Shown: positions 1,740-14,672 of the stretch, piece after piece
How the letters are laid out: each line of letters starts with the position of its first letter
How positions within the stretch are numbered: position 1 is the first letter of the stretch
Source: an uncultured Lachnospiraceae bacterium
GTDB taxonomy: Bacteria; Bacillota; Clostridia; Lachnospirales; Lachnospiraceae
Direction of reading: 5' to 3'
Assembly: GCA_947626795.1 (NCBI GenBank)
Contig: CANQTH010000030.1
Coordinates: 1-32,185 of the forward strand
Length of the DNA stretch: 32,185 nucleotides
Made by a program: the position numbers and the translations under genes
The notes under the pieces: generated by a model
Told to the model about the DNA's origin: nothing
The model's input: the letters and a program-made list of their open reading frames with translations, nothing else
Database searches by the model: none

Positions 1740-1905
1740 ATCGTTCCCTCCACGAGCCTCCGCAGGAATAATATACAAGCATACGCCTTACAATGGTTAT
1801 ATACTGAATGGAGGTGCAGCCATGCATTGTATCCGATCTATGTTACTGTCCGTCTGCCTCTCCGCCTCCCTGCTGTCCCAGGCGGCCGGGATGGGCGGGG
1901 CGCAG

Positions 1906-2094
1906 GCGGATAAAGCTCTCTTTTCCGCTTCCCTTCCGTCCGCGGCGGACGGGTCAGAAGCGGCGCAGGCGGACAAATCTCTCTTTTCCGCCTCCCTTCC
2001 GTCTACGGCGGACAGGTCAGAAGCGGCGCAGGCGGAAGAATCCCTCTTTTCCGCTTCCCTTCCGTCCACGGCGGACGGGTCAGAAGCGGCGCAA
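1906..2094 (+). repeat. Three tandem 63-bp repeats in the carboxypeptidase linker
   Basis: Three adjacent 63-bp units (1906-1968, 1969-2031, 2032-2094) encode 21-residue units containing the core LFSASLPS and ending SEAAQ. They lie between the signal peptide and the catalytic domain, a place where family members have only a short linker. The units differ by only a few bases, which points to recent expansion. Confidence 0.93.
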
Positions 2095-2387
2095 GCGGAA
2101 GTAGTTCCCATCTCCGCCCCGTCCGCCGTACTGATGGAGGCGTCCACCGGGCAGGTCATTTATGAAAAGAACGCCCATGCCGTCCTGCGGCCCGCCAGCA
2201 TCACCAAGATCATGACGCTCATCCTGATCTTCGACGCGCTGTCCGCCGGGAAGCTCTCGTTAGACGACGTCGTCACTGTGTCCGAACACGCCGCCAGCAT
2301 GGGCGGCTCCCAGGTCTTTCTGGAGCCTGGGGAGACCCAGACGGCCGACACGATGATCAAATGCATTTCCGTCGCAAGCGCCAACGA

Positions 2388-2399
2388 CGCCTGCGTCGC
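2388..2399 (+). repeat. Left attachment-site core (attL)
   Basis: CGCCTGCGTCGC here is identical to 10689-10700. With the flanking host bases it forms CGACGC-CT-GCGTCG (2385-2398), a perfect 6-bp dyad around a central CT. Serine integrases use sites of this kind and cross over at the central dinucleotide. Confidence 0.85.
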
Positions 2400-2465
2400 G
2401 TATCAGAAAAGGAATGGCCAAAAATCCCATCGTTGCGAAAAGGATCTCCCGGCAAAGGGCCGCGC

Positions 2466-4082
2466 TTACGCGCCGTCCCGGAACTTGTAATAAATGTTCG
2501 CCACGCCGCCCTCTTCCACCTCGATCCGGTCGATCAGCCCCACGACGGCCTCCCGCGTTAAGCGATCCACGCAGACGCCCTTTTGGAACCCTTCCGCCCA
2601 ATCGTCCGTCCCGCCTTCCTGCCCGGCGCGCCGCCGCTTTTCGTTTCGCAGGGCTTCCTCGTGCCGCTTTAGCGCCTCGGCCTCTTTTTCCTGCTCCCGG
2701 CGGTAATTCCGGTATTCCTCTTTCGTGATCAGGCCTTCCAGCAGGCTCTCGTACGTCTTTTTCTGAAACCCTTCCAGCTTCCGCAGCCGTTTCCTTATAT
2801 TCCTGATCTCGCGCTCAAAAAAATCCGCGCCGCCCGCGGCGTCCCGCGCCTGCATAAGCTCCTCTCGGTCCGCTTCCGTCAAGATCCTGCCCGCTTCCCG
2901 TTTTAGGGACTGCAAAACGGCTTCCTCCAGCTCCTGCCGCCCGATCCCGTGGCTTGCGCAGAAACGCTTCCCTTTCGTCTTGTACGTCCGGCAGACGTAT
3001 CCCGTGAACCCGCCGCCTGCGCGCCCCGCGTATTTTTTCACCATGGCGCGGCCGCAGTCCGCGCAGTACAAGATCCCGGAAAACAATCCGCTCGCCGGAA
3101 GCGGCCCGACGCTCCTCGCCCGCGCCTTCTGGAGCTTTTGCGCCAAGTCGAACGTTTCCTGGCTGACGATCGGCTCATGGGTACCGCGCACGACGATCCA
3201 CTCCTCCTTCGGAAGGGCGCGCTTCCGCCTGTCCTTATAGGACCGCGTGTTCGCCTTGTTCTGGACGAGATGCCCGGCATAGGCCTGGTTGTTCAAAATG
3301 GCATGAACCGTCTGGTACGACCACGCGCTCGGATCCACCGCGGCGTTCGGGTTCTGGTAATTCTCCCCTAAGACCTCCCGCTTATACGCCGTCGGGACCA
3401 AGATCCCCTCCGCGGACAAAAGCGACGCGATCTTCGCCTTCCCATGCCCGGAGAGGTAAAGCGCGTAAATCTTTTGCACCACGCCCGCGGCGTACGCGTC
3501 CGGCACGAGATGGTTATGGTCGGCGGCGTCCTTCTTGTACCCATACGGGCAGGACGAGCCTAAAAACTGCCCGGAACGCATCTTGGCCCGGAACGCGCTG
3601 CGGACGTTCTTTGAGAGATCCTCGCAGTACCACTCGTTGACAAGCCCGTGGATCTGCCTGCTTTTCTTATTCCCCTCATTCTCCGTGTCCGCCCCGTCGA
3701 CGACGCCGATAAAGCGGACGCCCAGATCGGGGAGGTCGTGGTGCAAATATTTCTCGATATGCTCCAGATTGCGGGAAAAGCGGGACTGCGTCTTCGCGAT
3801 GATCACGTCGAACGCGCCTGCCCGGGCGTCCCGCATCATCGCCCCGAACCCCGGCCTGTCGTCGTACAGCCCGCTCTCGTCGTCGTCCGAATATGACCCG
3901 ACGACCTCGTACCCGCGCGCCCTCGCATAATCCAAAAGCAAGAGCCGCTGGCTGCGGATGCTCGCGCTGTCGTCCCCTTCGTTCAGTTTGTCCGCGTCCT
4001 CCTTGCTCAGGCGCAAGTACAGCACGGCACGGTCCTTTCCCATGCCGCGCTGCCCCGCCTTGCCGTCATTTTGCCCTGGCAT
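2466..4082 (-). CDS. Large serine site-specific recombinase
   Basis: This 538-residue protein should catalyse integration and excision of the surrounding element through a phosphoserine DNA linkage. It shows the resolvase catalytic domain (about residues 17-165) with the R24-L-S26 active-site motif, a Recombinase domain (about 175-320), a zinc ribbon (C340, C343, C364, C375, with H378 nearby), a long charged coiled coil (about 405-495) and a C-terminal end resembling DUF4368. The length is usual for the TnpX/TndX group. It ends 66 bases from the left attachment core, the normal place for an integrase. The start at 4082 overlaps the end of a small upstream ORF, suggesting coupled translation; an alternative ATG at 4043 has no better ribosome site. 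Confidence 0.93.
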   Translation of the reverse strand: MPGQNDGKAGQRGMGKDRAVLYLRLSKEDADKLNEGDDSASIRSQRLLLLDYARARGYEVVGSYSDDDESGLYDDRPGFGAMMRDARAGAFDVIIAKTQSRFSRNLEHIEKYLHHDLPDLGVRFIGVVDGADTENEGNKKSRQIHGLVNEWYCEDLSKNVRSAFRAKMRSGQFLGSSCPYGYKKDAADHNHLVPDAYAAGVVQKIYALYLSGHGKAKIASLLSAEGILVPTAYKREVLGENYQNPNAAVDPSAWSYQTVHAILNNQAYAGHLVQNKANTRSYKDRRKRALPKEEWIVVRGTHEPIVSQETFDLAQKLQKARARSVGPLPASGLFSGILYCADCGRAMVKKYAGRAGGGFTGYVCRTYKTKGKRFCASHGIGRQELEEAVLQSLKREAGRILTEADREELMQARDAAGGADFFEREIRNIRKRLRKLEGFQKKTYESLLEGLITKEEYRNYRREQEKEAEALKRHEEALRNEKRRRAGQEGGTDDWAEGFQKGVCVDRLTREAVVGLIDRIEVEEGGVANIYYKFRDGA

Positions 4083-4170
4083 GGCTTGCGACCACTTCCT
4101 TCATGCAGTCCACAAGCCGCTTTTTCCCGTAAAACACCTTTACCCTGACGGGTTTTTTCTGCTTCTCCAA
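4066..4170 (-). CDS. Small 34-codon ORF coupled to the recombinase
   Basis: A TTG start at 4170 is preceded by GGAGG at a 5-nt spacing, the best ribosome site near the recombinase. The ORF encodes a basic 34-residue peptide with a central VRVKVFYG segment and a C-terminal stretch that looks helical. Its TGA lies 17 bases inside the recombinase gene, so ribosomes finishing it could re-initiate at 4082. It is the only unassigned coding candidate in the element. It could be a leader peptide that couples translation or a directionality factor; no homology is claimed, and the coding call rests on the ribosome site and the overlap. Confidence 0.55.
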   Translation of the reverse strand: MEKQKKPVRVKVFYGKKRLVDCMKEVVASHARAK

Positions 4171-4223
4171 CTGTGCCTCCGCTGTTTTTTTCTATTCTAT
4201 TCCGGGAAGGCTTGTCCTATGCC

Positions 4224-5858
4224 TCACGTCTCGTTCTGCTGCGCTACAAGATGCTCCACTCCGTATTTTTTCCGGAGCGCGGGCTTTTCGATCTTCCCGG
4301 TCGCGTTCCGCGGCACTTCCGCGAAAATGATCTTCTTTGGCCGCTTGTACCTTGGAAGCTGCCGGCAGAACTCGTTGATCTCGTCTTCCGTGCAATCCAT
4401 CCCTTTTTTGATCTCGATCACGGCCCCCGTGATCTCCCCTAAGCGCTCGTCCGGCAGCCCGATGACCGCGACGTCCTGGACTTTCTCATGCGTGCTTAAA
4501 AAGTTCTCGATCTGCACCGGATAGATGTTTTCCCCGCCGCTGACGATCACGTCCTTTTTCCGGTCGACGAGAAAATAAAACCCGTCCTCGTCCTGCTTCG
4601 CCATGTCGCCCGTGTACAGCCAGCCGTCCTTTAACGTCTCCGCCGTCGCCTTCGGGTCGTTGTAATAGCAGGTCATGACGCCCGGCCCCTTGACGCAAAG
4701 CTCCCCGACCTCGCCCTGCCTTACCTCCGCGCCGTCCTCGCCCACGATCTTGCATTTCCACCGATACCCCGGGACGCCGATCGCGCCTACCTTGTGAATG
4801 TTCTCGATCCCGAGATGGACGCACCCCGGCCCGGTCGATTCGGACAGGCCGTAATTCGTATCGTACATATGATCCGGGAAATATTCCTTCCAATGCTTGA
4901 TCAGCGACGGCGGCACGGGCTGCGCCCCGATGTGCATCAGCCGCCACTGGCCAAGCTCGTAATCGGACAGCTTCAAGTCGCCCCGGTCAAGCGCGGTGAG
5001 GATGTCCTGCGCCCACGGCACTAAGAGCCAGACGATCGTGCAGCGTTCCTTGGACACGGCGTCCAGGATGATCTCCGGCGTCGTCCCCTGCAAAAGGACG
5101 GCCCTGCTCCCCGCGCACAGGCTTCCCATCCAGTGGAATTTCGCGCCCGTATGGTAGAGCGGCGGGATGCACAAAAACACGTCGTCCCGGCTGGTCAGGT
5201 GGTGCCGCTGCTCCATCTGCGCCGCCTGCATCAGGCTCTCATGGTTATGTAAGATCGCCTTGGGGAATCCGGTCGTCCCGGACGAAAAATAAATGGCCGC
5301 GTCGTCCTCGTCCTCCAGCCGGACAAGCGGCGGCTGGCTGGAGCAGTCGGCCACAAGCTCCCGGTAGCTCTCCGCGAACGTCGGGCAGCCGTCGCCTACA
5401 TAAATAAGAAGCCGCCCCTTGCTCAATTCCTCCTCGATGGACTCGATCCGCCCGATGAACTCAGGGCCGAAAAGCAGCACATGCACTTCCGCTAAGTCCG
5501 CGCAGTACTGGATCTCGTCCGCGGAAAAACGGAAATTGAACGGGACCGCGATCGCCCCGGCCTTCAAGATCCCGAAATAGATCGGCAGCCACTCTAAGCA
5601 GTTGAACATCAGGATCGCCACGCGGTCGCCCTTTCGCACGCCGCGCGCTAAGAGCATATTCGCCACGCGGTTCGCCTTCTCGTCAAAAATGCCCCAGGTG
5701 ATCTCCCTGCGGTACGGGATGGGCGAAGTCTGCTGGACCAGGTTATATTCCTTCCATGTCGTCTTCCTGGTGTCTTTTATCAGCGGATTCAGCTCCACCA
5801 GCGCCACTTCGTCCCGATAGAGCTTATGGTTCCTCTCTAGCAAATCAGTTACCGGCAT
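4224..5858 (-). CDS. AMP-forming acyl-CoA synthetase (class I adenylate-forming enzyme)
   Basis: This 544-residue enzyme should activate a carboxylic acid with ATP and join it to CoA. Class motifs are all present: the phosphate-binding SSGTTGFPK (192-200), YGLSEST, GWLYTGD, the hinge-region DRKKDVIVSGGENIYP and the C-terminal catalytic lysine in ATGK (K522). The overall look is of the FadD/CaiC group, but the acid substrate cannot be assigned; the neighbourhood suggests an aryl or aryl-alkanoic acid. AAGGAAGG precedes the ATG by about 8 bases. The gene is divergent from the amidohydrolase, with overlapping promoters, and reads towards the small ORF and recombinase 53 bases downstream, so all three could share a transcript. 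It is cargo of the mobile element. Confidence 0.88.
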   Translation of the reverse strand: MPVTDLLERNHKLYRDEVALVELNPLIKDTRKTTWKEYNLVQQTSPIPYRREITWGIFDEKANRVANMLLARGVRKGDRVAILMFNCLEWLPIYFGILKAGAIAVPFNFRFSADEIQYCADLAEVHVLLFGPEFIGRIESIEEELSKGRLLIYVGDGCPTFAESYRELVADCSSQPPLVRLEDEDDAAIYFSSGTTGFPKAILHNHESLMQAAQMEQRHHLTSRDDVFLCIPPLYHTGAKFHWMGSLCAGSRAVLLQGTTPEIILDAVSKERCTIVWLLVPWAQDILTALDRGDLKLSDYELGQWRLMHIGAQPVPPSLIKHWKEYFPDHMYDTNYGLSESTGPGCVHLGIENIHKVGAIGVPGYRWKCKIVGEDGAEVRQGEVGELCVKGPGVMTCYYNDPKATAETLKDGWLYTGDMAKQDEDGFYFLVDRKKDVIVSGGENIYPVQIENFLSTHEKVQDVAVIGLPDERLGEITGAVIEIKKGMDCTEDEINEFCRQLPRYKRPKKIIFAEVPRNATGKIEKPALRKKYGVEHLVAQQNET

Positions 5859-5876
5859 AAGGTTTCCTTCCTTTCA

Positions 5877-5905
5877 TTGACAATTTTTCCTCTTTATTTT
5901 ATCAT
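5877..5905 (+). promoter_or_regulatory. Promoter of the amidohydrolase gene
   Basis: TTGACA (5877-5882) and TATCAT (5900-5905) are spaced by 17 bases. The predicted leader is about 38 nt and contains AAAGGAG (5934-5940). Its -10 box overlaps that of the divergent promoter for the acyl-CoA synthetase. Confidence 0.75.
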
Positions 5906-5923
5906 ATTATCCGAATAAATCAA
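5896..5923 (-). promoter_or_regulatory. Promoter of the acyl-CoA synthetase gene
   Basis: On the minus strand TTGATT (5918-5923) and TAAAAT (5896-5901) are spaced by 16 bases, giving a leader of about 30 nt. It shares bases 5900-5901 with the opposing promoter, so RNA polymerase probably cannot occupy both at once. Confidence 0.5.
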
Positions 5924-5949
5924 AATATTTCTTAAAGGAGATTCCGAAC

Positions 5950-6813
5950 ATGGTCATTGATTTTCATACACATACGTTTCCTGCGAAGATTTCAGAAAAA
6001 ACGCTGGCGAAGCTGGCTCTAGCGTCCCACACGAAATATTTCACGGACGGCTCTACGGACGGCCTGCGCGCGTCCATGGAGGCCTCCGGCGTCGACTATT
6101 CCGTCAACCTCCCGGTCATGACTTCCCCCGGCCAGGTGGAAAAAGTCAACCGCTCGCTGATGGAGAGCAGAGAGAGCCTGCTAAGCCAGGGCATCGTCAC
6201 GTTTGGCGGGATGCACCCGGACTACGATAACTACCGGGAGGAGCTGCGCCTTTTGAAAGCGCACGGGATCCCGGGCGTCAAGCTCCACCCCGCCTACCAG
6301 AACACGGACTTGGACGACATCCGGATGGAACGCATCATCGGCTGCGCTTCCGAGCTTGGGCTTATCGTGCTGGCGCACGCCGGGATCGACATCGGCATCA
6401 CCGACCATAACTACGCCTCCGTCCGCCACATCCTGAACGTGCTGCGGGACGTCCGCCCGGAGAAGCTCGTCTTAGCGCACATGGGGAACTGGGGATGCTG
6501 GGAAGACGTGGAAAGCGACCTCGCCGGGGCTCCTGTCTGGCTCGACACCGCGTTTTCCATCGGCCCGGTCACGCCGGACGATTCCCAAAAGGAAGCCCCC
6601 TACCTGTCTTACAACTTAACGGAAAAAGATTTTGTCCGCATCGCGCGAAAGCACGGCACGGACAAAATCTTATTCGCTACCGATTCCCCCTGGGAATCCC
6701 AGGAAAGCTATATCCAGCGCATCCAGAGCCTTCCGCTTGACGAGGCGGAGAAAACGCGGATCTTCTCTGAGAACGCAAAGGAGCTGCTGCAGCCCGCAGG
6801 CCGCCCTTATTGA
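5950..6813 (+). CDS. Amidohydrolase-superfamily (amidohydrolase 2) TIM-barrel protein
   Basis: This 287-residue metal-dependent hydrolase or decarboxylase has the N-terminal H6-x-H8 metal motif (DFHTHTFP), an internal KLHP segment, a LAHAGID segment, a LAHMGN strand and a late FATDSPWES block carrying the catalytic Asp. The layout is that of the amidohydrolase 2 family, which includes both hydrolases and ring decarboxylases; the substrate is unknown. AAAGGAG sits 9 bases before the ATG and a good promoter lies upstream. It is the only cargo gene on the plus strand, and its last 7 bases overlap the end of the convergent paaK. Confidence 0.85.
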   Translation: MVIDFHTHTFPAKISEKTLAKLALASHTKYFTDGSTDGLRASMEASGVDYSVNLPVMTSPGQVEKVNRSLMESRESLLSQGIVTFGGMHPDYDNYREELRLLKAHGIPGVKLHPAYQNTDLDDIRMERIIGCASELGLIVLAHAGIDIGITDHNYASVRHILNVLRDVRPEKLVLAHMGNWGCWEDVESDLAGAPVWLDTAFSIGPVTPDDSQKEAPYLSYNLTEKDFVRIARKHGTDKILFATDSPWESQESYIQRIQSLPLDEAEKTRIFSENAKELLQPAGRPY

Positions 6814-8111
6814 TACAGGTTCCTTTTGTCGATCACGCGCACGGCCTTGCCCTCGCTCCGCGTGATGCTCTTTGGCGCCACGACCCTGACGTCCGCCTTG
6901 ATGCCCAGCATGGATTTTAATCCGCTTACGAGCTTTTTCTCACGCTCTTCTGCGGGCGTGGAGCCGTCTTTTTCCATTTCCGGCGTCAATTCCACCTGGA
7001 CTTCCATGGTGTCGCTGTTGCCGATCCGGTCCACAACGATCTGGTAATTCGCCTGGAAGCCCTGGTTCAGTAGTACCGTCTCGATCTGGGACGGCCATAC
7101 GTTGACGCCCTTGACGATCATCATGTCGTCGCTCCTTCCCTTCGGCTTCATCATGCGCACATGGGTGCGCCCGCAGGAGCATTTTTTCCTTGAGAGGCGG
7201 CATAAGTCGCGCGTGCGGTAACGCAGGAGCGGGAACGCCTTTTTCGTGATGCAGGTAAACACCAGCTCCCCGACTTCGCCCTCCGGCAGGACTTCCCCGG
7301 TGTCCGGGTCTATGATCTCCGGGATGAAATGATCCTCCTGGACGTGCATCCCCGCCTGCTCTTCGCATTCAAACGACACGCCCGGGCCGGAAATCTCGGT
7401 CAGCCCGTAAATGTCATACGCCTTGATGCCGAGGGATTCCTCGATGTTATGGCGCATCTCCTCCGTCCACGGCTCCGCGCCGAAGATCCCCGCCTTTAAC
7501 TTGATCTTATCCCGCAGCCCGCGCTCGTTGACCGCCTCGCCTAAATTGGCCGCGTAAGACGGCGTGCAGCATAAGATGGTCGATCCTAAGTCCGTCATGA
7601 ACTGGAGCTGGCGCTCCGTGTTGCCGGACGACATCGGGAGCGTCAGGCAGCCGACCTTGTGCGAACCGCCGTTCAGCCCGGGTCCTCCGGTGAACAGCCC
7701 GTATCCGTAGCAGACGTGGCAGACGTCGTCCGGCGTCCCGCCCGCCGCGACGATCGCCCGCGCGCAGCATTCGTCCCAGATGTCGATGTCTTCCTGCGTA
7801 TAGAACGCGACGACGCGGCGCCCGGTCGTCCCGCTCGTGGACTGGATGCGCACGCAGTCCTTTAACGGCACGCCCAAAAGCCCGTACGGGTACTGGTCGC
7901 GCAAGTCGTCCTTCGTGATGAACGGCAGCTTGTGCAGATCGCCAATCCCCTTGATATCCTGCGGCGCAACGCCCGCCTCATCCATCCGCTCGCGGTAAAA
8001 CTTCACGTTCTCGTAAACAAACTGCACCTGCTTTACCAGCCGCTCGCTCTGGAGCGCCTGGAGCTGTTCTAACGGCATTGTCTCAATTTCCGGTTGATAA
8101 TAATTTTTCAT
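6807..8111 (-). CDS. paaK: Phenylacetate-CoA ligase
   Basis: This 434-residue AMP-forming ligase converts phenylacetate, or a related arylacetate such as indoleacetate, to its CoA thioester. The PaaK-type P-loop STSGTTG is at residues 91-97, followed by YGLTEISGPG, a YRTRDL segment, a Cys/His patch (CSCGRTH) and the C-terminal KGRSDDMMIVKGVNVWPSQIE region, written here only as family landmarks. The start at 8111 has GGAG about 9 bases upstream; longer in-frame starts do not. It is the third gene of an iorA-iorB-paaK operon. In anaerobes and archaea this trio links aryl-pyruvates and arylacetates through a common aryl-acetyl-CoA. Confidence 0.93.
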   Translation of the reverse strand: MKNYYQPEIETMPLEQLQALQSERLVKQVQFVYENVKFYRERMDEAGVAPQDIKGIGDLHKLPFITKDDLRDQYPYGLLGVPLKDCVRIQSTSGTTGRRVVAFYTQEDIDIWDECCARAIVAAGGTPDDVCHVCYGYGLFTGGPGLNGGSHKVGCLTLPMSSGNTERQLQFMTDLGSTILCCTPSYAANLGEAVNERGLRDKIKLKAGIFGAEPWTEEMRHNIEESLGIKAYDIYGLTEISGPGVSFECEEQAGMHVQEDHFIPEIIDPDTGEVLPEGEVGELVFTCITKKAFPLLRYRTRDLCRLSRKKCSCGRTHVRMMKPKGRSDDMMIVKGVNVWPSQIETVLLNQGFQANYQIVVDRIGNSDTMEVQVELTPEMEKDGSTPAEEREKKLVSGLKSMLGIKADVRVVAPKSITRSEGKAVRVIDKRNLYQ

Positions 8112-8140
8112 CTCTTTTCTCCAATCGTTGATTCTGTTGC

Positions 8141-8163
8141 GGGGACGCCCGCGGGGCGTCCCC
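8141..8163. other. Perfect 10-bp hairpin between iorB and paaK
   Basis: GGGGACGCCC and GGGCGTCCCC surround a 3-base loop in the 60-base gap between the iorB stop and the paaK start. There is no T-run after it on the minus strand, so it is not a typical terminator. It may protect or partition the mRNA between the two cistrons. Confidence 0.6.
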
Positions 8164-8171
8164 AAAGCCTC

Positions 8172-8744
8172 TTACGCCTCCCCGCGCCCGAGCAGGAACG
8201 CCTTCTGGTTCATCTCCTCAAATTTCGCCGGGACGCATTCCGCGATGGCCTTCTGCCATTTCTCCGCCGGGATGTCAAAATACAAGGACAGCCGCCCCAT
8301 CAGCACGATGTTCACCGCCTTGGCCGAACCCGCTTTCTCGGCGAGCGACAGGCAGTCCATGGCGTCCACCCGGATGCCGAGCGCCTGCATTTTCCCGATC
8401 AGCCCTTCCGGGTAAGGCGCCGCGCCGATGATCACGGGCATTGGGTCGATCTGCTGCGTATTCGTGACGATCCTGCCGCCTTCCTTTAAATATTCCACAT
8501 AGCGGGCCGCCTCTAACTCTTCAAAGGAAACGATGAAATCCGCCTCCCCCTTGTCGATGATCGGGGAATATACCTTGTCCCCGAACCGCACGTAGGTGAC
8601 GACGCTCCCCCCGCGCTGGCTCATCCCATGGACTTCCGACACTTTCACGTCATATCCCTCGGACAGGAGCAGATGCCCCAAAAGTTTGCTGGCGAGCAGG
8701 GAGCCTTGCCCCCCGACGCCCACGATCATGATATTCTTCGTCAT
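8172..8744 (-). CDS. iorB: Indolepyruvate:ferredoxin oxidoreductase, beta subunit
   Basis: This 190-residue gamma-type 2-oxoacid oxidoreductase subunit partners IorA in oxidising aryl-pyruvates (indolepyruvate, phenylpyruvate) to aryl-acetyl-CoA, CO2 and reduced ferredoxin; the reverse direction is known in some anaerobes. Landmarks are GVGGQGSLLASKLLG near residues 9-23 and SEVHGMSQRGG, typical of IorB. The start at 8744 follows GGAGGT by 6 bases and overlaps the iorA stop as ATGA, indicating translational coupling; upstream in-frame ATGs would extend into iorA without a ribosome site. It is cargo of the mobile element. Confidence 0.93.
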   Translation of the reverse strand: MTKNIMIVGVGGQGSLLASKLLGHLLLSEGYDVKVSEVHGMSQRGGSVVTYVRFGDKVYSPIIDKGEADFIVSFEELEAARYVEYLKEGGRIVTNTQQIDPMPVIIGAAPYPEGLIGKMQALGIRVDAMDCLSLAEKAGSAKAVNIVLMGRLSLYFDIPAEKWQKAIAECVPAKFEEMNQKAFLLGRGEA

Positions 8745-10483
8745 TTCCGCACCTCCCCCGGCTGCAATGCGTCGGGCCTGCATAACTGCCGACAGACGCC
8801 GCAGCCGACGCAAAGCGTATTGTCAATGGCCGCTTTCCCGTCCTTTATGCTGATCGCCGGGCAGCCGATCTTCATGCAGGACTTGCACCCCACGCATTTT
8901 TCCTTGTCCACGCGCAGGGGCGGCTGATGCTTCACGTATTTCAGCAAGGCGCAGGGCCGCCTGCTGATGATGACGGACGGCTCTTTCGCGGCCATCTCCT
9001 CCTTCAATACGCGGTCGCACGCTTCCAGGTCATAGGGATCCACGACCGTCACGCGCTGAAAGCCCATGGCGCGGCACAAGCTCTCCAGATCGATCTTGCC
9101 GGCCGGGTCGCCCTTGATGTTGTACCCGGTCGTCGGGTTCTGCTGATGCCCCGTCATCCCGGTGATGGAATTGTCCAGGATGATCACGGTGGAAGCGCTC
9201 TGGTTGTATGCGATATTGGCAAGCCCCGTCATCCCGGAATGCATGAAGGTGGAATCCCCGATGACCGCCACCGTCTTCCCCTCGCTCTCTTCCCCCAGCG
9301 CCTTGTTAAAGCCGTGGATGGAGCTGACGGACGCCCCCATGCAGAGCGTAAGCTCGATCGCATTTAAGGGGGACACCGCGCCCAGGGTATAGCACCCGAT
9401 GTCGCCCAAGACCGTGCAGTGATTCTTAGATAACGTATAGAACAGCCCCCTGTGCGGGCATCCCGCGCACATCACAGGCGGGCGTCCCGGAAGAGCCTCG
9501 CCCAGGCTCTTGTAGGAAGGCGGCTCCTTGCCCAGCCGTTCCGCGACCATGTTCTGGGAATATTCCCCCTCCAGCGGGAACACGTCCTTCCCGATCACCG
9601 TAAGCCCCAGCTTCCGGCAATGGTCCTCGATAATGGGATCCAGCTCCTCGACGACAGCCAGCTTGTCCACTTTTGCGGCAAAATCAAGGATCAGCTTCTC
9701 CGGGAGCGGATAGGCCATGCCAAGCTTCAAGATGCTGGCCTCCTCCCCAAAGGCCTCCTTCACATACTGATAGCACGTCGAAGATGTGATAATGCCCAGC
9801 TTCGTCCCGCCCATCTCCACGCGGTTGAACGCGCAGTCCTCCGCGTAGGCCGTAAGCTTCCTTGTGCGCTCCTCCACGATCGGATGGCGGCGGATCGCAT
9901 TGCCCGGCATCATCACGTACTTCGCGATATTTTTCTCATACGGAAGCCGCTTCTCCTCCGTCCGCTCCCCCGTCTCGACTATGCTCTGGGAATGCGCGAT
10001 CCTCGTGCACATCTTCATAATGACGGGCGTGTCAAATTCCTCCGACAGCTCATACGCCTTCCTGGCAAAAAGATAAGCCTCCTCTGAGTCCGAAGGCTCC
10101 AGCATCGGCACTTTGGCCGCCGCCGCGTAATGCCGGGAATCCTGCTCGTTCTGGGAGGAATGCATCCCCGCGTCGTCCGCCACGCAGATCACCATCCCGG
10201 CGTTCACCCCGGTATAAGAGCAGGTGAACAGCGGATCCGCCGCGACGTTCAATCCTACGTGCTTCATCCCGCAAAAGCTCCGCCTGCCCGCCAGGGACGC
10301 GCCGAACGCCACTTCCAGCGCGACCTTCTCGTTCGGCGCCCATTCGCAGTAGATCTCGTCGTACTTGGCGGCTTCTTCCGTGACTTCCGTGCTGGGCGTC
10401 CCCGGGTAGCTGGACGCCACCGCGCACCCCGCCTCATACAGCCCTCTCGCAAACGCCTGATTGCCTAACATCAATTGTTTCAT
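8741..10483 (-). CDS. iorA: Indolepyruvate:ferredoxin oxidoreductase, alpha subunit
   Basis: This 580-residue catalytic subunit binds thiamine diphosphate and electron-transfer clusters. Visible are the N-terminal pyrimidine-binding domain with SSYPGTPSTE, a middle transketolase-type domain, the diphosphate-binding region around MCAGCPHRG and GDSTFMHSG, and a C-terminal ferredoxin domain with cysteines at about 530/533/536/541 and 558/561/564/568. AAAGGA lies about 9 bases before the chosen ATG at 10483; the in-frame ATGs at 10492 and 10579 are less well placed. It is the first gene of iorA-iorB-paaK, transcribed from a promoter beside the right attachment site through a structured leader of about 150 nt. 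Confidence 0.95.
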   Translation of the reverse strand: MKQLMLGNQAFARGLYEAGCAVASSYPGTPSTEVTEEAAKYDEIYCEWAPNEKVALEVAFGASLAGRRSFCGMKHVGLNVAADPLFTCSYTGVNAGMVICVADDAGMHSSQNEQDSRHYAAAAKVPMLEPSDSEEAYLFARKAYELSEEFDTPVIMKMCTRIAHSQSIVETGERTEEKRLPYEKNIAKYVMMPGNAIRRHPIVEERTRKLTAYAEDCAFNRVEMGGTKLGIITSSTCYQYVKEAFGEEASILKLGMAYPLPEKLILDFAAKVDKLAVVEELDPIIEDHCRKLGLTVIGKDVFPLEGEYSQNMVAERLGKEPPSYKSLGEALPGRPPVMCAGCPHRGLFYTLSKNHCTVLGDIGCYTLGAVSPLNAIELTLCMGASVSSIHGFNKALGEESEGKTVAVIGDSTFMHSGMTGLANIAYNQSASTVIILDNSITGMTGHQQNPTTGYNIKGDPAGKIDLESLCRAMGFQRVTVVDPYDLEACDRVLKEEMAAKEPSVIISRRPCALLKYVKHQPPLRVDKEKCVGCKSCMKIGCPAISIKDGKAAIDNTLCVGCGVCRQLCRPDALQPGEVRK

Positions 10484-10632
10484 ACCAGACATCCTTTCGT
10501 AATCAAGTCTCGCCCGCGCGTCCTGGCGCGAGATCCGGGCCGCTTTCGCAGGCATTTTCTGATCCGGATCTTTGCGCATCCCCGCGGAGCGTCAGTCAGA
10601 TGGTCCTGTCTCCCATCTGATGTGAATTTCCA
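10484..10632 (-). promoter_or_regulatory. Structured leader of iorA
   Basis: The predicted 5' leader holds three inverted repeats: TCAGATGG with CCATCTGA (within 10595-10621), AGATCCGG with CCGGATCT (within about 10535-10575), and a CTCG...CGAG stem close to the ribosome site. None matches a T-box, TPP or other riboswitch consensus known to me, and no T-run terminator is evident. It may regulate translation or be fortuitous in GC-rich DNA. Confidence 0.45.
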
Positions 10633-10638
10633 AATGAC

Positions 10639-10667
10639 ATCATACCATTTTTTCCTGGATTCGTAAA
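10639..10667 (-). promoter_or_regulatory. Promoter of iorA-iorB-paaK
   Basis: On the minus strand TTTACG (10662-10667) and TATGAT (10639-10644) are spaced by 17 bases, with TGG directly before the -10 box as in extended -10 promoters. It lies about 20 bases inside the right end of the element. Confidence 0.7.
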
Positions 10668-10688
10668 CACTTTTCCATATCTTTACGC

Positions 10689-10700
10689 CGCCTGCGTCGC
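10689..10700 (+). repeat. Right attachment-site core (attR)
   Basis: This 12-bp sequence is identical to 2388-2399. The base after it completes the GCC alanine codon that precedes ATGGCGGAA of the carboxypeptidase second half. Confidence 0.85.
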
Positions 10701-11490
10701 CATGGCGGAACAGATCTGCGGCAGCGAGCAGGAATTTGTCAGCCAGATGAACAAACGCGCGCAGGAGCTTGGCATGAAAGACACGACGTTCGTCAACTGC
10801 TGCGGTCTGGACACGGACGGCCACATGACGACGGCCTACGACGTGGCCCTCATGTCGCGCGAGCTGATCACGCGGTACCCGCAGATCCACGATTATTGCA
10901 CGATCTGGACGGACGCGATCACGCACAATACGAAAAAAGGCCAGTCGCAATTCGGCCTTGCGAACACCAACAAGCTCATCCGGCAGTACCCCTACGCCAC
11001 AGGGCTAAAGACAGGTTCGACCTCCCAGGCAAAATACTGCGTCTCCGCCACAGCAAAAAAAGACGGCCTGAACTTGATCGCCGTCGTGATGGCCGCTCCG
11101 GATCACAAAGTCCGTTTCCAGGACGCGGCCGCTTTATTGGATTATGGATTCGGGAAATGCCAGGTATACCGGGATGAGAATCAGGATTCCCTCCCAAGCC
11201 TGCCCGTCCTGGGCGGCCTGGAGGAGACGGTCCCCCTCGCCTACGCTTCCGGCTTCTCTTACCTGGACGTCGCAGGGTCGGACCTGTCCGCCGTCACAAA
11301 AGAGCTGCTGCTGCCGGAATCCGCGGGTGCCCCGATCGAGCAGGGGCAGGTCGCGGGGAAGGCCGTATACAAGCTGAACGGCAAAGAGATCGGCTCGGTC
11401 AGCGTGCTGTTCCAAAAATCCGTTGGGAAGGCCCTGTTCAAGGACTATTTCTTAAAGGCCCTGGGGCGCTTCTGCTTATCCAAAGGCTAG
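10700..11490 (+). pseudogene. 3' part of the interrupted D-Ala-D-Ala carboxypeptidase gene
   Basis: This half encodes the rest of the DacA/DacF-type catalytic domain, with the K296-T-G298 motif of the restored protein in GLKTGST. A C-terminal PBP5-like beta domain and a final helical KALFKDYFLKALGRFCL segment, suited to peripheral membrane binding, follow. It opens with ATG at 10702, but that codon is residue 194 of the restored protein and has no ribosome binding site, so it is probably not translated alone. Reading across the joined 12-bp repeat with 1822-2399 gives one frame of 455 residues. The half itself has no internal stop or frameshift, consistent with a recent or reversible interruption. 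Confidence 0.9.
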
Positions 11491-13124: not shown

Positions 13125-13925
13125 CTAGCACATCAGCTTCCCGATGTCCACCATGCCCCAGCCCTGTTTTGACGAGGGCAGGCCTAAGTCCGCCGCCCGC
13201 TGGTACAGGCGCAGCTTTACATCCGCCGGGGTAAAATACGGATATTTGCAAAGCAAAAGCGCGACGCTCCCGCTCACCATCGGGACGGCCATGGACGTGC
13301 CGCTCTTCCGCACGTAAAGCTGCGGGTAGATGGAGCAGCTCGCGACGTTCGTCCCGGGCATGACCACCTCCGGCTTCACGACGCAGCTCTCGGTCGGCCC
13401 CTGTCCGGAATAATTCGGCTTTAGCTGCGCGCGTCCGATCTGCTCTCTCGTGTCGTCAAAGCAGCCCGCCGTAATGACCTTGCGGCTGACGCCCGGAACC
13501 GTGACGCTCTGCCCGGCCGGCCCGTTATTCCCCGCCGCCGCCACGACCACGATATCGTTGTCCCATGCAAATTCCACCGCCTGCAGCATCCGGACGCGTT
13601 CCTTGCTCTCCGCCTGCAGGACCATCCCGATGGAGATATTTATGATCCGGATGTTGTAGATCTCCTTCCTGCTGACCAGCCACTGGATCGCCTGCACCAC
13701 GTGTTCCGTCTTCCCATTCCCCTTTTTGTCCAGGATCTTCACAATGACCAGATGGCTGCGCGGGGCGATCCCCATGTATTTCCCGCCGGACGCCTCGCCG
13801 TTCCCGCCAAGGATCCCGGCGATATGCGTCCCATGCCCGTTGTCGTCATACGGCGCCTTCCGGTCGTTGACCAGATCCAGGAAGCAGGCGACCCGTTCCC
13901 CATAATCCGGGTGCAGGGCAGCCCC
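13125..13925 (-). pseudogene. 3' part of an interrupted subtilisin-like serine protease gene
   Basis: This part encodes the S8 peptidase from just after the catalytic Asp. It carries the catalytic His in NGHGTHIAG, the oxyanion Asn in AAAGNNG and the catalytic Ser in SGTSMAVP (H61, N163 and S241 of the restored protein). The open frame extends upstream to 13955, but the ten extra codons come from the insertion. Joining at GGGGC (13921-13925 with 14578-14582) to the first part gives VLDTGAALHPDY and a 296-residue protein with no signal peptide, like intracellular subtilases of Clostridia. No internal stops or frameshifts are present. Confidence 0.88.
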
Positions 13926-14582
13926 CTCTCCTGTTACAGGAGCGCAGGAATGCATAAATTTTGCCGAAAAAACACTGCCGCCCGCGCCCGATGGCGTGAA
14001 ACGGCAGTGACTCTTTTTACAGGTATCCGCGCAGATCGGCGGCGAGATCTTCTTCCAGCCCGATCAGCTTCTTCGCGACGTCCTTCGCCTGCTCGTCGGC
14101 CGCCTGGTACTGGTTCAAATATTTACTGAGCGATTTCACGCCCATGTCGCACCCGTCCGTCATGATCCCGGCGATCGTCCCGTCCGACTCATTCAGCACG
14201 AGCTTCACATTCGTCTTGAGCCAGGACATCCCCTTCGCCACGGGGCTTGGGTCCTTCCCCGTATCGTGCCGCTCGCCCAAAAGCCCCTGAACCTCATCCT
14301 TTAGCCGGATATGCTCGTCCTTGCAGTCCACCAGGCGCTGCTTGAGCCTCACGTCGCCGACATATCCCAGCACATCGTCGATCGAATCCACTCCCATCTT
14401 GATCCCGGCGTCGCATTCGCGAAGCAGCCGTACCGTATCTTGTCCTTCCATTTTCCCACTCCTTCTTTCCCGGGCGGACGGGCATAGCCTCCGACCGCCT
14501 TGTCGTTATGAGAAGAAGTATTCCTGTTTTCTTTCTTTTTTATGCGCCTAAAACCGTCTGGCGCTTATGCCACACGCGCCCC
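13921..14582. mobile_element. 657-bp insertion interrupting the subtilase gene
   Basis: A 657-bp unit lies between two copies of GGGGC (minus-strand reading). Removing one copy plus the insert restores the protease frame. It carries one complete gene (14017-14451) and no transposase. Hairpins lie at both ends: CTCCTGT/ACAGGAG at about 13928-13942 and GCGCC/GGCGC at about 14544-14565. No terminal inverted repeats are evident. The 5-bp repeat could be a target duplication or a crossover core; the type of element is unknown. Confidence 0.75.
14017..14451 (-). CDS. Small helical protein of unknown function, carried by the insertion
   Basis: This 144-residue protein has no signal peptide or membrane segment and is dominated by amphipathic helices, with many charged residues and a late TDGCDMGVKSLSKYLNQY segment. 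The pattern recalls four-helix-bundle ferritin-like proteins of the DUF2383 type, but the identification is weak. AAGGAG is well spaced before the ATG. It is the only gene in the 657-bp insertion and reads in the same direction as the protease it splits, so the protease promoter at 14751-14779 may drive it; no convincing promoter of its own was found. Confidence 0.75.
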   Translation of the reverse strand: MEGQDTVRLLRECDAGIKMGVDSIDDVLGYVGDVRLKQRLVDCKDEHIRLKDEVQGLLGERHDTGKDPSPVAKGMSWLKTNVKLVLNESDGTIAGIMTDGCDMGVKSLSKYLNQYQAADEQAKDVAKKLIGLEEDLAADLRGYL

Positions 14583-14672
14583 GGTATCTAATACCGCGAT
14601 CCCGACGCCTTCGCCATAATAGCCTTTCCGATACGCTTCCGACGCATGGAGCAGCTCCCTGACCCTATCCAT
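14565..14672 (-). pseudogene. 5' part of the interrupted subtilase gene
   Basis: The start at 14672 gives MDRVRELLHA and leads to the catalytic Asp in GIAVLDTG (D29), after which the frame enters the insertion and stops at 14565. GAGAGGGG lies upstream, somewhat far (about 12 bases) from the ATG. The frame can be extended to 14822, but that would run through the promoter and has no ribosome site. Host sequence ends at 14578-14582, the shared GGGGC. Confidence 0.8.

Follow-up and report, generated by a model that had tools for sequence, protein, structure and literature searches.

A D-Ala-D-Ala carboxypeptidase gene (dac) of an uncultured Lachnospiraceae bacterium is cut in two by an 8,301-bp element, which raises the question of whether the gene is dead or is held for use after the element has left. 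The locus lies in a 32,185-nucleotide stretch of DNA, here called the window, from a 2.89-Mb genome of 144 contigs. Our analysis makes it probable that this is a skin-type intervening element and that its own serine recombinase excises it in the mother cell during sporulation.

A carboxypeptidase gene cut by an element whose removal would restore it

The reading frame of dac that begins at 1822 leaves the gene past 2399 and picks it up again at 10701. Translation, Pfam PF00768, and orthologues assign 1822..2399 (+) to the 5′ half of the gene, with the signal region and the motifs SxxK and SxN; translation and Pfam assign 10701..11490 (+) to the 3′ half, with KTG and a PBP5_C domain. The halves cover profile positions 6-110 and 107-238 of the 239 in PF00768 and are thus one Peptidase_S11 gene. 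A repeat search and reconstruction of the junction place a 12-bp core repeat, CGCCTGCGTCGC, at both ends of the element, at 2388..2399 (+; left attachment site, attL) and 10689..10700 (+; right attachment site, attR). Deletion of 8,301 bp gives the junction ANDACVAMAEQIC and an in-frame composite of 455 amino acids with zero stops, as an original prediction made from the window alone had proposed. The repeats and halves of that prediction stand, and only the start of its 3′ part has to be moved: position 10700 still belongs to the right repeat, as its final base, and the retained part begins at 10701.

The joined protein also has the complete set of penicillin-binding protein motifs foreseen in the prediction, with SITK and SAN in the translated 5′ half and KTG in the 3′ half. 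We take SxxK, SxN, and KTG to be the catalytic motifs of carboxypeptidases, and because the first two lie on one side of the element and the third on the other, neither half should be a carboxypeptidase alone. A large serine recombinase does lie against one end, its gene ending at 2466, 66 bp inside the left repeat. Separately, a 63-bp tandem repeat (3.2 copies, in frame; window 1899-2100) lengthens the region of dac behind the signal peptide in the window genome.

Recurrence of the split at one codon

Related genomes hold the empty sites for which a search had been suggested. Within the genus, dac is continuous in 18 of 29 genomes and split at the same codon in 11 (G000, G001, G002, G010, G013, G017-G021, and G024), a genome being counted as split where the 3′ half begins at the split codon. 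The 3′ half is present in all 29, as is a 5′-half match, that of G018 being at paralogue level only. A recombinase orthologue (E below 1e-150) was found in 10 of the 11 genomes with a split gene and not in any of the 18 with a continuous one (p 5e-7); without G018, whose match lies on a doubtful contig, the count is 9 of 11 (p 5e-6). That contig (C168) carries a different dac half (61%), maybe through bin contamination, and was excluded from the pairing for the genus tree. The eleventh split genome, G020, has a C-terminal recombinase piece at a contig end beside the 5′ dac half. Distant recombinases in the intact genomes G014, G015, and G016 (37-38%) were not scored as orthologues.

Relatives beyond the genus, the best 80 of 82, came from a scan of an 84,980-species collection with short peptide patterns. 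Where the recombinase is at least 50% identical to that of the window, the stretch fetched around it contains a dac half at 35 of 38 loci, in many cases flush with the recombinase. The exceptions are L096, L116, and L160; in the latter two the recombinase is cut by a contig end, and the L116 contig does hold a 3′ dac half. In L096, whose recombinase is 56% identical to the window's, what lies 23 nt beyond the recombinase is not dac but another frame, of 292 codons or more, and this close kin may have another target. Recombinases at dac-split loci are 51-66% identical to that of the window (73% for one fragment), and named carriers include Petralouisia muris, Schaedlerella arabinosiphila, and Dorea sp. 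5-2.

Both halves were found in 12 further loci, 2.7-15.3 kb apart and split at the same codons, which makes the observation more than chance; in G013 and G002 they are ∼52 and ∼59 kb apart, so that element spans run from ∼2.7 to 59 kb overall. Joining the halves of the 13 loci that have both (the window and these 12) was scored as in frame and stop-free in 12; in the thirteenth, L087, the junction is in frame and the alignment runs beyond the natural stop. The automatic core finder chose wrong repeats in L087, L099, L103, and L107, and codon registers were used for those splits. In G021, GCATG is all that remains of the site at the left end, where element sequence then follows, and the right end reads TTGTGTCGC; the shared dinucleotide is therefore TG, which narrows the crossover. 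The element occurs in two orientations, with the recombinase toward the 5′ half (as in the window) or toward the 3′ half, and each orientation forms one group on the dac tree (71/79) and not on the recombinase tree.

Purifying selection on the split halves

Both halves of dac are under purifying selection while split. Median ratios of nonsynonymous to synonymous substitution (dN/dS) for the 3′ half in the genus are 0.064 among split genomes (7 usable of 55 pairs) and 0.070 among intact ones (25 of 136), pairs with saturated or tiny dS having been dropped (48 of 55, 111 of 136, and 185 of 190). The cleanest test is offered by the genomes that share the indolepyruvate oxidoreductase (ior) cargo described below, in which the split is probably ancestral. 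Here the 7 unsaturated pairs of 10 give a dN/dS of 0.044-0.084 for the 3′ half; for the 5′ half, read from residue 97 and with G018 lacking, the 4 unsaturated pairs of 6 give 0.013-0.107. The dS values are mostly 0.5-1.6. Neither half has stops in this group, whereas neutral simulation places 6.9-7.4 stops on average in the 3′ half along one branch. More widely, the scored split loci have no stop in their 5′ halves and complete 3′ halves, with L107 cut by a contig end. The low dN/dS and the lack of stops therefore make it very likely that selection acts on the joined protein. These results agree with the earlier view that neither half has further lesions and, with the empty sites and the recurrent split at one codon, bear out the proposed skin-like layout.

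Association of the gene with sporulation

The original prediction had noted that some cell-wall carboxypeptidases (DacF, DacB) act in sporulation, and two kinds of evidence link this dac to it. First, a spoIVA match is present in 146 of 195 relatives and a window-type dac in 139; both occur in 134 genomes, spoIVA only in 12, dac only in 5, and neither in 44 (Fisher p 6e-27). The window genome has spoIVA. In the family outside the genus the corresponding counts are 52, 5, 1, and 33, and those for a control paralogue, the second Dac (C1 copy), are 50, 7, 26, and 8 (p 0.24), so that the paralogue shows no link with sporulation.

Second, a sigma-E-like promoter, GAATAAT-N14-CTTACAAT, precedes dac at 1766..1794 (+). 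All sporulation-promoter scores in this work are based on what we take to be the sigma-factor consensus forms, which are unequal in length. The dac promoter agrees with 12 of 14 consensus positions, a score that 6 of 1000 mononucleotide shuffles also reach, and its place and spacing are similar in relatives. Across 38 distinct dac upstream regions, sigma-E is the best of four sporulation sigma factors (mean z 2.35, against 1.30, 0.61, and 0.82 for the others); promoters for sigma-F, sigma-G, and sigma-K are poorer fits under these consensus forms of unequal length. The upstream regions of spoIVA, used as a sigma-E yardstick, gave no clean signal. An ATA −35 element has been described for sigma-E, the −10 element of which closely resembles that of sigma-K (PMC3789822). 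Taken together, the co-occurrence with spoIVA, the paralogue control, and the predicted promoter mark the split dac as a sporulation gene, as judged from genome comparison.

The recombinase operon

The recombinase gene (2466..4082, −; assigned by Pfam, a PHROG integrase match, and alignment) encodes 538 amino acids with Resolvase, Recombinase, and Zn-ribbon domains (Pfam) and faces the left repeat. Its start is probably Met16 (4037), as in relatives, since a start at the first ATG (4082) would overlap a small conserved open reading frame (ORF). This ORF (4066..4170, −), of 34 amino acids from a TTG, is a candidate recombination directionality factor, chosen for a conserved motif upstream of the recombinase. 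The motif, YG..(L/I)..C(M/L), is present in the ORF upstream of the recombinase at 35 of 39 distinct loci and also at L099; no small-ORF match was found at L097, L098, or L101, and the small ORF has no match to Pfam or to a known family. Among recombinases with other targets, 4 of 42 show a pattern match, of which only that of L117 looks real, so the motif does not extend to them. An inverted repeat with co-varying arms seems, by eye, to lie between the small ORF and the recombinase in L082, L084-L086, L088-L090, L095, L096, and L104; none was seen in the window.

Ahead of the small ORF and the recombinase lies a sigma-E/K-like promoter motif, GCATAGG-N14-AATAGAAT (4194..4222, −), assigned from its recurrence across loci. 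Such a motif precedes the operon at 11 of 31 loci (200 shuffled sets: null mean 0.83, maximum 4). Of two alternative patterns, one does so at 12 of the 31 loci (null mean 2.42, maximum 6) and the other at 7 (null mean 0.14, maximum 2); the three patterns were picked post hoc from the sequences at related, non-independent loci.

Phages and attachment sites

The G013 element encodes a 2,889-residue tape-measure protein, and three viral contigs carry recombinases 58-61% identical to that of the window. One of these loci, L200, has tape-measure, distal-tail, and other tail proteins and no dac half within the 21 kb examined. Directly after its recombinase lies an intact 48-bp palindrome with a dac-like core, GTCTACTAT...ATAGTAGAC, which resembles the phage attachment site (attP) predicted from the integrated copies L083 and L085; tail genes and an intact palindromic attP occur in two viral contigs, L200 and L201. 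A DNA pattern for attP, run over viral contigs, returned 10 stretches, two of them from the contigs of L200 and L201. Seven relatives have a reconstructed attP that is clearly palindromic (no more than 2 of 300 shuffles equally good), with four loci unscored where the core finder failed. In phage records, all recombinases are below 60% identity (24 records). The phage genes and the intact attP in viral contigs show that the family includes phages. On sequence grounds, many chromosomal copies look like reduced forms, suggesting a direction from phage to small element.

The window element itself consists of the recombinase, the small ORF, and five metabolic genes, with no recognized structural phage gene, and is in this respect unlike a temperate prophage.

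Proposed mechanism and alternative explanations

By analogy with the skin element of Clostridioides difficile (skinCd), we infer excision, its mother-cell timing, the role of the small ORF, and control by sigma-E. In that system, sigma-E and SpoIIID switch on a directionality factor, letting a constitutive recombinase excise the element (PMC5025042); the factor has 53 residues (PMC10747680). Here, sigma-E would drive the small protein and the recombinase in the mother cell, and the recombinase with its putative directionality factor would join attL (2388-2399) and attR (10689-10700) at the Cys codon of DACVAMAE. An 8.3-kb circle would be released and an intact D,D-carboxypeptidase gene rebuilt, to be transcribed by the same sigma factor and to act on the spore cell wall. 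The most likely place of excision is the mother cell; as this cell dies, the element would stay in the inherited genome. The elements may have originated as temperate phages integrating into dac, with shorter descendants shedding phage genes and gaining other cargo, in this case an indolepyruvate/aryl-acid operon.

Several observations weigh against this reading. Among the 11 split genomes, G021 (85% complete) and G024 (95% complete) show no spoIVA match. A sigma-F promoter fits the dac upstream region in part, and a role of dac in the forespore would make excision heritable and the long maintenance of the element harder to explain. The window copy of the operon promoter is weak by itself (25 of 200 shuffles equally good), and the post hoc choice of the patterns belongs here as well. 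The window attP is only weakly palindromic (13/26; 47 of 300 shuffles equally good), as is that of L105 (28 of 300). Neither the rebuilt dac junction, looked for in the window's own assembly, nor the circle junction, looked for in viral contigs, was found, a result that is weak either way because assemblies collapse minor forms. Finally, the recombinase and dac trees agree only partly (Mantel r 0.47 for 29 loci and 0.79 for 9 in the genus), and L086 and L089, from two species, have recombinases identical at 520 of 522 residues and dac 3′ halves that are 86% identical. Some elements are therefore recent arrivals by transfer; strict co-descent of recombinase and dac, considered as a further possibility, is supported only in part.

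These signs of transfer would also be expected if dac were an ordinary integration hot spot, entered by temperate phages and islands through a serine integrase and restored only on induction or loss, with no developmental programme. The tail genes in one large element and in viral contigs, the intact attP, the intact dac in 18 of the 29 genus genomes, and the two split genomes with no spoIVA match point the same way. We nevertheless consider this explanation unlikely, since purifying selection continues to act on both halves in the genomes with the ior cargo, dac has ties to sporulation, sporulation-type promoter motifs stand ahead of the recombinase operon, and small elements of few genes exist.

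Less likely again is a reversible switch, with excision in the forespore or during vegetative growth, followed by re-integration or frequent loss of the element. The failure to find the rebuilt junction in the window assembly, the better fit of sigma-E than of sigma-F, and the persistence of elements with little cargo all speak against such a switch; the many empty sites in the genus, an integrase accompanied by an intact attP in phage contigs, and the partial sigma-F fit are what it would explain.

A static insertion that inactivated dac and left its halves as remnants is very improbable. The window genome has two other full-length Dac genes (C4 and C1 copies), which could be read in its favor, and the original prediction had named a second intact carboxypeptidase, together with a lack of empty sites, as signs of such an insertion. 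Empty sites do exist; over the 3′ half, the C4 copy shares 32% identity, and the C1 copy is the paralogue that shows no link to sporulation. Most directly, dN/dS values like those of intact orthologues and the lack of stops at synonymous distances of about 0.7-1.1 already contradict a static dead insertion and led us to reject it. The poorest account is a split enzyme whose halves are expressed separately and then assemble: a Met codon at 10702 could start the 3′ half, but that half lacks a signal region, and joined orthologues have the same Met as the M of their AMAE. In addition, the junction brings back the exact reading frame, and split and recombinase occur together in the genus.

Comparison with known systems

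Excision by a serine recombinase encoded within the element thus remains the favored explanation, and it has precedents. The few sporulation genes reported to be rebuilt by DNA excision include sigK, spsM, spoVFB, gerE, and yabG (PMC10747680, PMC5595907). The skin elements in sigK (Bacillus subtilis and C. difficile skinCd) likewise cut a sporulation gene and carry their own serine recombinase. Excision restores the host gene of skin, and in the dac element the predicted restoration is exact. The target of skin is a sigma factor, whereas that of the dac element is a D,D-carboxypeptidase, and the window element carries metabolic genes in place of phage genes. A further difference from skin is that here the recombinase gene is immediately preceded by the small ORF, and both element orientations occur across species.

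The gin element in gerE of Bacillus cereus ATCC10987 is a non-prophage intervening element with a 9-bp repeat, a serine recombinase, and the accessory factor GirX (PMC5595907), and it resembles the dac element in its short repeat and recombinase. It differs in its size of 28.6 kb, its three recombinases, and its host class, Bacilli; the portions of its description available to us mention no metabolic operon (PMC5595907). Sporulation genes are also interrupted, with precise excision, by yin in yabG, which is prophage-like and reported to be unique to one strain (PMC10747680), and by SPbeta in spsM (PMC4191935). In contrast to yin, dac elements recur in dozens of loci, and selection on the split gene is measurable. 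Two large serine recombinases with solved structures, TnpX (2mhc, E 1e-14) and SPbeta YokA (9dxh, E 2e-11), match the N-terminal part of the window recombinase, which is distant from both in sequence and has its attachment site in dac.

Full-text searches of an open-access library returned no paper with an intervening element in a D,D-carboxypeptidase gene in its title or the opening of its abstract, and the word "dac" is absent from the main texts of PMC10747680 and PMC5595907. The target, breadth, and cargo of these elements appear to be new, whereas the principle is known.

Cargo of the element

Five metabolic genes fill the window element. An AMP-binding acyl-CoA synthetase (4224..5858, −; Pfam, NCBIfam) is followed by an Amidohydro_2 amidohydrolase (5950..6813, +; Pfam) and a phenylacetate-CoA ligase-like (PaaK) gene (6807..8165, −), for which TIGR02155 is the best match, under its cut-off. 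Indolepyruvate oxidoreductase beta (IorB; 8172..8813, −; NF005325) and indolepyruvate ferredoxin oxidoreductase alpha (IorA; 8741..10579, −; TIGR03336) both score above their cut-offs. IorA orthologues (84-86%) adjoin the 3′ dac half in G018, G019, G020, and G024, and window-type IorA was found only beside this half, in G000, G018 (in two contig pieces), G019, G020, and G024. The remaining genus genomes have an IorA copy that is 53-54% identical or no match at E 1e-100. The window thus shows a metabolic operon housed inside what would be a removable element. Elsewhere, the cargo differs from the ior operon that the window shares with G018, G019, G020, and G024 and includes, by eye, toxin-antitoxin-like genes in L085 and AAA-ATPase-like proteins in L100.

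Related recombinases in other genes

Recombinases 35-48% identical to that of the window split other genes, with the gene parts flanking the recombinase on either side. The split in an Isp-like S8 subtilase falls near GHGTH (L119, L121, and L122), and that in a PRK06851-family ATPase falls near DGTAPH/VVDP (L123, L128, L134, L137, L140, L145, and L161). The Isp orthologue of C. difficile, CD2000, is under sigma-E control (PMC3789822). In four genomes, spoIVA itself matches in two pieces, with the break near profile position 399-412 and gaps of ∼3.5-17 kb: G010:C56:14902-19844 (L178), G137:C54 (L195), G176:C40 (L196), and G151:C6 (L197). Another group of large serine recombinases splits the gene in L178, L195, and L196, the last two assigned by eye.

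On balance we lean toward the view that programmed excision in the mother cell is common in gut Lachnospiraceae and related Clostridia. One recombinase family would have colonized dac, the Isp-like subtilase, and the PRK06851 ATPase, and another would split spoIVA; such genes would be safe harbors, where phages and later metabolic operons are inherited free of cost since the rebuilt gene is required by the dying mother cell alone. If this is true, rebuilding of genes by excision would be part of everyday development in common gut bacteria, with dac split in dozens of genomes. The dac elements offer a natural series from phage to small element and a set of integrases with a defined bacterial attachment site (attB), and removable inserts are a possible reason why spore genes look broken or missing in metagenome-assembled genomes.

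The subtilase is also in two pieces in L144, L147, L148, L150, L154, L156, and L159. In the window, an S8 subtilase gene two genes from dac (13125-14672, −) is interrupted by ∼0.6 kb containing a 144-residue ORF (14017-14451); no recombinase was seen in this interruption, which may be a small insert or mark a pseudogene.

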